From Desulfurococcales archaeon (GTDB taxonomy: Archaea > Thermoproteota > Thermoprotei_A > Sulfolobales > NBVN01): a stretch of 42,160 nt of DNA. The position numbers were made by a program, and so were the translations under genes. Location of the stretch: the NCBI GenBank assembly GCA_015521295.1, contig WAOL01000010.1, positions 1 through 42,160 of the forward strand. The letters are read 5' to 3'. The notes beneath the pieces are model-generated. The model worked only from the letters and a program-made list of their open reading frames with translations, did not search any database and was not told the origin of the DNA. Of this stretch, positions 13,465 through 16,898 are shown in pieces. How positions within the stretch are numbered: position 1 is the stretch's first letter; each line of letters begins with the position of its first letter.

Positions 13465-14424
13465 ATGGTGATAGAGAGGTCATTCGAGGTAGTCACAGTA
13501 GTCCCCCCTGAAGATGTCCTTGAAATTTTATCCGACCTCGAACTCAGCATACCGATGTGGTCTATTTATGAGTCGATGGAGCTAATCAACGATAATGAAG
13601 CTTACGTTACACTCAGAATCTCCGGCTCCACTTACAGGTTGAGACTGAGGTTGAGAAGGGAGAGGAACCGAATAATAATTGAGGGGGCAGGTCCCATAGC
13701 ACTCACAATAGTGATAAATGTTGAGAGGCGTGGTGCGGGAACAATAATAAGCGGGAAAGTTGTAGTTAAGGCAGGGTTCTTTAAGGAACGAATACTTGCT
13801 CCAGGAATAGCTGCGTTCATAGACGATACTAAAAACAAGATAATGTTTCAACTACCAATGATTGCTGAGGTGTATAGGGAAAGAAAGAAGGTCATGGAGA
13901 AAACCCCAGTAGAGAAGGAGAAGCCAAGGGAGAAAGTTAAGGAGGTTAAGAAACCTGAGGTTAAGGCACCAGCACCGACTCAGCGTGAAGTCAAACCACA
14001 GCCTAAGGAGGTACGCAAGTACGAAGAAGCCCCCGAGAAAGTGAGGGAAAGGAAGGAGGCACCAGCACGAATCAATATCAGAGCGAATCCTGACAAGTTA
14101 GGCGACGAGTTAATACTAGGCATGATTCTGCTTAGGTCTGAACTAATTGACACTACGAAAGTCAGCCTAAGCGGTGAAGAGGTACTGAATCAGGTCAGCA
14201 GGAAGTATGGTGACCTCAAAGAAGACATACTGTACATGAACATTAGGTCCTCGGACAGGAAGATTAATATGAAATTCCTCATAGAGAAGGGGACGTTAAC
14301 GGGGGTCAGGGTGGATCTCCAAGATAGGGCACTAAACGGTAAGGAAGCACTGGAACATATAATGAGCTTGCCTAAGGTAGAGGGGAGAATGTACGTGTTC
14401 AAGGTTCCTCCAGGCACTGTGTAA
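13465..14424 (+). CDS. SRPBCC/CoxG-like N-terminal domain, charged K/E/P linker, uncharacterised C-terminal domain
   Basis: N-terminal ~135 aa alternating-strand pattern resembling the CoxG/START fold; low-complexity linker (about aa 138-195); globular C-terminus. Confidence 0.55.
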   Translation: MVIERSFEVVTVVPPEDVLEILSDLELSIPMWSIYESMELINDNEAYVTLRISGSTYRLRLRLRRERNRIIIEGAGPIALTIVINVERRGAGTIISGKVVVKAGFFKERILAPGIAAFIDDTKNKIMFQLPMIAEVYRERKKVMEKTPVEKEKPREKVKEVKKPEVKAPAPTQREVKPQPKEVRKYEEAPEKVRERKEAPARINIRANPDKLGDELILGMILLRSELIDTTKVSLSGEEVLNQVSRKYGDLKEDILYMNIRSSDRKINMKFLIEKGTLTGVRVDLQDRALNGKEALEHIMSLPKVEGRMYVFKVPPGTV

Positions 14425-15654: not shown

Positions 15655-15700
15655 TACCGTGCTATTGACTTGGAGTTCAATAATTTTGTAGGAGATTGGT

Positions 15701-15775
15701 GCGGCGGCCGGGATTTGAACCCGGGATCTCCGGCTTGGGGGGCCGGCGTCCTAGACCAGGCTAGACGACCGCCGC
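15701..15775 (-). tRNA. tRNA-Gly(CCC)
   Basis: Minus strand folds to a cloverleaf: acceptor GCGGCGG/CCGCCGC, anticodon stem CCGGC-CCCCCAA-GCCGG, T arm CCGGG-TTCAAAT-CCCGG. Anticodon CCC; position 33 is C. Confidence 0.93.
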
Positions 15776-15800: not shown

Positions 15801-15808
15801 CTTATAAG
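15801..15808 (-). promoter_or_regulatory. TATA-like box (CTTATAAG) for tRNA-Gly
   Basis: CTTATAAG about 26 bp upstream of the tRNA 5' end, the expected archaeal TATA spacing. Confidence 0.55.
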
Positions 15809-15814
15809 TTCTAG

Positions 15815-16606
15815 TTATTTTCTCTTTATTGATTTTATAATTTCTACACATTTTTCGGGGTCTTTCTCTACGATTGTTCCCGTTACTATGATATCTGCAC
15901 CTGCCCTTACGGCGGCCTTGGCTTTCTCGGGTGACCTTATGCCTCCTCCGACGATGAGTGTTAGGTTCTTCTTTACTTTGGCTGCGTACCTTATGAAAGT
16001 GGGTGGTATTGGTTCTGGCGCCCCAGATCCTGCTTCGAGGTATGCGTACTTCATCCCCATCATCCTGGCTGCTAGTACATATGCGGCCCCTATTTCGGGG
16101 CGGTCGTACGGTATTGGCCTTGCCTTCCCAACATATCCTGCCGCACCGCCATACCCAACTATTATGTAAGCTGTGGGCAAGGTTTCTAGTCCGTATCTTT
16201 CTATTATTGGTGCTCCAAGTACCTGCGCACCTATGATGAAGTACGGGTCGTCTGAGTTTAGGAGTGAGAGGAAGAGTATGGCGTCAGCATACCTGGATAT
16301 ACCGGTGATGTTCCCTGGAAATAGTATGACTGGGACTCCCAACCCCTTAAGTTCCTGAACTACAGCGTCCGCGTCCCTCTCCGAGACCCCCACAGACCCG
16401 CCGACGAGGAATGCATCCGTTCCTGCCTCAACCATGAACTTACCCAATTTGCGCACGTTCTTTAACGCTTCTCCGTAAGCCTTGTCGGGATCTATTAGCG
16501 TGAAGTGTAGCGCACCTTCCTCAGCGATCTTATTAGTGATGTAGTCATGCACTGATGACCAGTTATTCTGTGTCCTCCTCAACGCTTTCCTCCTCGGGAG
16601 TCTCAT
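15815..16606 (-). CDS. Geranylgeranylglyceryl phosphate synthase family protein; probable start is the GTG of VHDYITNKI, downstream of the longest-ORF ATG
   Basis: LHFTLIDPDK, LVGGSVGVSE, LFPGNITGIS, YLEAGSGAPEPIP, IVGGGIRSPEKAKAAVRAGADIIVTGT motifs. Confidence 0.93.
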   Translation of the reverse strand: MRLPRRKALRRTQNNWSSVHDYITNKIAEEGALHFTLIDPDKAYGEALKNVRKLGKFMVEAGTDAFLVGGSVGVSERDADAVVQELKGLGVPVILFPGNITGISRYADAILFLSLLNSDDPYFIIGAQVLGAPIIERYGLETLPTAYIIVGYGGAAGYVGKARPIPYDRPEIGAAYVLAARMMGMKYAYLEAGSGAPEPIPPTFIRYAAKVKKNLTLIVGGGIRSPEKAKAAVRAGADIIVTGTIVEKDPEKCVEIIKSIKRK

Positions 16607-16898
16607 AAGTTACCTCAATCTCACCGGAAGTGAATTTATCTAAGAACTTCGAGTAGATGTCCACAGCGTCAAGTATCGGGGGTATGTCCTCCATAGTTGC
16701 GCGTAGCCCACACGAAGGATTAAGGCACTTGATTACAGCTCTTTTCCTAGTGAAGCTCTCGTCTCCCTCGTTAACGGTGTATTCCTCAACATCGATAACT
16801 AAGTTAGGTAACCCACAGGCAGGACATTGAAACACTTTAGGCAGTCGGCGCCTCTGCTGCCCTATCTTCTTATAGCGTTTCCTTCTACGCCTACCCAT
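16563..16898 (-). CDS. Elf1-like transcription elongation factor (zinc protein)
   Basis: MGRRRRKRYKK N-terminus, CPACG...CLNPSCGL zinc-binding pairs. Confidence 0.75.
   Translation of the reverse strand: MGRRRRKRYKKIGQQRRRLPKVFQCPACGLPNLVIDVEEYTVNEGDESFTRKRAVIKCLNPSCGLRATMEDIPPILDAVDIYSKFLDKFTSGEIEVTYETPEEESVEEDTE

Follow-up and report, generated by a model that had tools for sequence, protein, structure and literature searches.

Cytosine at position 33 is a recurrent lineage trait of tRNA-Gly(CCC) in an archaeal order

The tRNA-Gly(CCC) Locus

The stretch of DNA analyzed here (the window, 42,160 nucleotides of contig WAOL01000010.1) belongs to a thermophilic Desulfurococcales archaeon whose genome of 1.39 Mb is 98% complete and is distributed over 99 contigs. 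Its minus strand carries a gene for tRNA-Gly(CCC), preceded by a TATA-like box and by a gene of the PcrB family (table 1). The latter marks the genomic place of the tRNA and is not part of the tRNA feature. It overlaps a gene for an Elf1-like zinc ribbon, the two together occupying 15815-16898 (-) and ending 39 bases before the tRNA. Elsewhere in the window, at 13465-14424 (+), a protein of 319 amino acids with a charged middle portion rich in lysine and proline is encoded; it has no Pfam match.

Table 1. Features of the tRNA-Gly(CCC) locus, in coordinates of the window
Feature	Position	Strand	Basis
Gene for tRNA-Gly(CCC), 79 nt including an encoded 3' ACCA	15697..15775	-	ARAGORN and Rfam RF00005
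Position 33, C instead of U	15740	-	Direct reading; ARAGORN loop cccccaa
Anticodon CCC (positions 34-36)	15737..15739	-	Direct reading and ARAGORN
TATA-like motif TTATAAG, at -32 to -26 relative to the 5' end of the tRNA	15801..15807	-	Direct reading; kept in 5/5 genomes of the genus
PcrB family gene (geranylgeranylglyceryl phosphate synthase-like), co-directional, upstream of the tRNA	15815..16606	-	Pfam PF01884, E = 1e-59

The tRNA gene scores 60.5 bits in Rfam, where the gathering score is 29, and every stem is paired; it has both the standard cloverleaf and the CCC anticodon of an elongator tRNA-Gly(CCC). Its anticodon arm, read directly, is CCGGC-CCCCCAA-GCCGG, with a seven-base loop C32-C33-C34-C35-C36-A37-A38 (position 32 at 15741, A37 at 15736, and A38 at 15735). 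U33 is nearly invariant among tRNAs, without being an absolute rule, and accepted exceptions exist; here the base is C. The original prediction for this DNA had described a minus-strand tRNA-Gly(CCC) with C33, paired stems, and a TATA-like box some 26 bp upstream, and direct reading, ARAGORN, and Rfam all bear out the gene, as does the TTATAAG motif the box. Of the bounds that it had given, 15701-15775, the 5' end was correct and the 3' end one base short (it lies at 15700, or at 15697 with the encoded CCA). A thermodynamic fold of the unmodified tRNA-Gly(CCC) RNA did not yield the cloverleaf, a failure that is common in computed folds of unmodified GC-rich tRNAs. The possibility of a tRNA pseudogene was also considered and rejected: the stems and the TTATAAG box are conserved, and no second copy with U33 was detected.

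Distribution of C33 among Related Archaea

An exact scan of a species-level genome collection with the C33 anticodon arm returned 65 contigs. The majority come from archaea and have the arm embedded in an intact tRNA-Gly; matches in bacteria are due to chance. Within the order, degenerate patterns allowed 160 of the 214 genomes to be typed, and tRNA-Gly(CCC) has C33 in 59 of these, U33 in 101, and both in none, a non-tRNA U33 match in G020 having been removed. Since no typed genome has both alleles, the C33 genomes are without a detected normal CCC copy; a U33 backup gene for tRNA-Gly(CCC), sought in the C33 genomes of the order, was found in none of them. Pattern matches in G145, G167, G020, G232, G429, and G504 were rejected as non-tRNA, their stems being unpaired, and an ARAGORN scan of the loci in G145, G232, G429, and G504 detected no tRNA.

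The window's genus is uniformly C33 (five of five genomes), and its family is divided (9 C33 vs. 15 U33). Family f4 is C33 in 31 of 31 typed members; family f9, which we infer to be the Sulfolobaceae, is U33 in 23 of 23 typed genomes. The C33 allele is also present in genera of f1, f3, and f7, and in f10 and f11, and two genera of f8 hold both C33 and U33 genomes. Even with polytomies resolved most favorably, the taxonomy requires at least six changes at position 33 within the order. C33 is an inherited lineage trait that recurs in the order, not the singular oddity that the original prediction implied, and the window gene alone is an ordinary member of its clade. That prediction had itself foreseen that C33 could prove to be an ordinary lineage feature, and most close relatives do have it; it was also right that C33 is rare and that the loop to be expected in archaea is CUCCCAA, the allele of the 101 relatives.

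The acceptor stem and the arms of the C33 tRNA-Gly(CCC) match those of the relatives' U33 tRNA-Gly(CCC). A comparison of C33 and U33 genes by eye, made for compensatory changes elsewhere in the tRNA, revealed no fixed difference, the stems and loops being the same. Verified C33 tRNA-Gly(CCC) genes also occur beyond the order (G217, G227, G270, G327; archaeal contigs L048, L055, L058, L062). The form at L251 (G227) and, by pattern only, at L252 (G228), likewise outside the order, combines U32 with C33 in the loop UCCCCAA. One genome that is 55% complete (G153) has three matches to the C33 tRNA-Gly(CCC) arm, which are either duplicate copies or the product of mixed strains.

Position 33 in Other tRNAs

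Sets of tRNAs were read from stretches of two genomes, the source genome and G106, and from scattered loci. The source genome has 41 tRNAs by ARAGORN run around the Rfam hits, and tRNA-Gly(CCC) alone among them lacks U33. A tRNA-Tyr flagged as another exception was discarded as an intron mis-parse by ARAGORN; the intron-containing tRNAs that the program mis-parsed in this genome are U33 by eye. The loops of its other glycine isoacceptors are CUUCCAA in tRNA-Gly(UCC) and CUGCCAA in tRNA-Gly(GCC), which bears an intron. Among the readable tRNAs of G106, C33 is limited to tRNA-Gly(CCC) and tRNA-Gly(UCC). When distinct tRNA sequences are counted over every locus retrieved, a choice of loci that biases the tallies towards C33, Gly(CCC) has 32 C versus 16 U and Gly(UCC) 10 C versus 4 U. 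All the non-glycine tRNAs on these loci are U33, except for a single uninspected Arg call with A.

A pattern search, from which one non-tRNA match was removed, located C33 in tRNA-Gly(UCC) of 31 genomes; the CCC gene is typed in 24 of them, and in all 24 it is C33 as well. tRNA-Gly(GCC) is U33 in nearly every genome matched, and the two with C33 (G048 and G049) were verified as having intact tRNAs. In these members of genus g17 the loop is CCGCCAC (L327, L328), and a congener, G050, has U33 (L329).

Discussion

U33 is deemed near-universal since it makes the U-turn of the anticodon and, at least with the eukaryotic Elongator, triggers the modification of U34. Human Elongator requires U33 for this modification, and in yeast mcm5U34 disappears from a tRNA that carries U33C (PMC11096365). 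The open-licence literature yielded no description of C33 in an archaeal tRNA-Gly and nothing on C33 in connection with Desulfurococcales; GtRNAdb and the older tRNA compilations may list it. An archaeal tRNA-sequencing preprint of 2025 deals with nine species, including Sulfolobus, and the terms "Desulfurococc" and "position 33" are absent from its text (PMC12247713). The authors of PMC7668247 (2020) remarked on C33 in the tRNA-Cys(GCA) of Sulfolobales, which resembles our case in that C33 extends over a whole lineage and the tRNA is an archaeal elongator from the same phylum, with the mature RNA isolated in neither; it is, however, a different isoacceptor, and the tRNA-Gly(CCC) of the inferred Sulfolobaceae keeps U33. 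The eukaryotic initiator tRNA-Met likewise retains C33 in a functional tRNA (PMC9023262), but it is an initiator that enters the P site directly, whereas the tRNA described here is an elongator. tRNA-Pro(GGG), listed among the U33 exceptions in PMC11096365, is likewise an elongator that lacks U33 and decodes a GC-rich codon; it serves another amino acid. Canonical archaeal tRNA-Gly(CCC) agrees with the window's tRNA in stems, T-arm, length, and encoded CCA, and differs in its U33.

The gene is, in our view, genuine and single-copy, and its product is probably an expressed elongator tRNA-Gly(CCC) that retains C33 when mature, accepts glycine, and decodes GGG, with C33 as a tolerated, lineage-fixed T-to-C variant. 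GGG accounts for 216 of the 891 glycine codons (24%) in the window ORFs and is therefore in regular use. The T-to-C change arose, or reverted, at least six times within the order and almost only in tRNA-Gly, mostly in CCC, then in UCC and rarely in GCC, and the mature RNA would be both unedited and functional. Glycine isoacceptors may tolerate C33 through their strong GG:CC codon pairing, a plausible though unproven mechanism. CCC would presumably be the freest of them: with C34 there is no U34 for a U33-dependent modification by Elp3/Elongator, so that one demand on U33 would fall away. The N3-H donated by U33 in the U-turn is missing from C33. Tolerance of C33 is not free, because U33C in yeast tRNA-Gln(CUG) gives a pseudohyphal phenotype, interpreted in the original study as a sign of less efficient decoding or charging (PMC3664417). 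Against this explanation also stands the loss of U33 in far more genomes for UCC than for GCC (31 vs. 2), for which neither the pairing strength nor the Elongator argument accounts. C33 in archaeal tRNA-Gly might, more tentatively and with a rather low probability, be selected and not merely tolerated: it would loosen an over-strong GG:CC decoding of GGN and, in UCC, block the U33-dependent modification of U34 by Elp3, with a spread from CCC to UCC to GCC. In that event the glycine codons read by tRNA-Gly(UCC) would change. Two sets with C33 have GGG shares of 21% and 17%, versus 34% in a set with U33, a comparison confounded by GC content and phylogeny.

Against the tolerated variant, several other explanations must be weighed. 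The original prediction had raised C-to-U editing, by which an encoded C33 would be deaminated to U33 before the tRNA works and the normal U-turn restored; the enzyme would have to come from a family other than those detected. This would explain the repeated tolerance of C33, and C-to-U editing of archaeal tRNA has a known precedent, C8 of a Methanopyrus tRNA being edited by CDAT8. However, the cytidine deaminase family PF00383, to which a CDAT8-like system would point, has no match at E<=1 in the source genome, nor do three congeneric genomes have one; among 40 genomes, the deaminase is present in 14 of 25 with C33 and in 8 of 15 with U33 (Fisher p = 1). The restriction to glycine tRNAs is moreover left unexplained unless the enzyme is very specific, and we consider editing of C33 to U unlikely. 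It is distinctly unlikely, too, that the tRNA has become redundant or been retired in part, with both GGA and GGG read by tRNA-Gly(UCC) while the CCC gene drifts or serves a nonribosomal role. The source genome does have a normal U33 tRNA-Gly(UCC), which could also read GGG, so that CCC need not bear the load, and C33 is commonest in the CCC isoacceptor; yet many species conserve all the stems of the tRNA along with its T-arm, CCA, and promoter box, the gene has not been lost, UCC is itself C33 in 31 genomes, and GGG is a common codon.

The five-C loop could in principle allow C33-C36 to pair with GGGG (CCCC:GGGG) or to shift register, with unusual decoding or a frameshift as the outcome. Unusual decoding had been suggested at the outset, but nothing positive speaks for it, GGG being a normal and frequent glycine codon here: 64 of 213 GGG codons in the window ORFs precede a G, which indicates neither avoidance nor special use, and this redundancy is missing from the UCC form (CCUCC). 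We regard a four-base reading as highly improbable. The chance that faulty sequencing or assembly has altered the run of six C, a worry natural enough for a C homopolymer within a metagenome-assembled genome and one that the original prediction had raised, is negligible. Independent projects have recovered the same base in 59 genomes of the order, among them the single-contig assemblies G048, G086, G103, G106, and G111, and a homopolymer error would alter the length, yet the loop has its seven bases. Because it recurs in genomes that were independently sequenced and assembled, C33 is neither chance nor error.

This archaeal order, some members of which can be cultivated and whose closely related species differ repeatedly at position 33 of their glycine tRNAs, is a natural experiment, and its C33/U33 contrast permits a direct test of the role of U33 on the ribosome and in archaeal U34 modification. 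The pattern may show when the "universal" U33 can be given up, and it merits the attention of specialists. In G106, the bodies of tRNA-Gly(CCC) and tRNA-Gly(UCC) are identical except at position 34 (L270, L257), so that gene conversion could move C33 between them.
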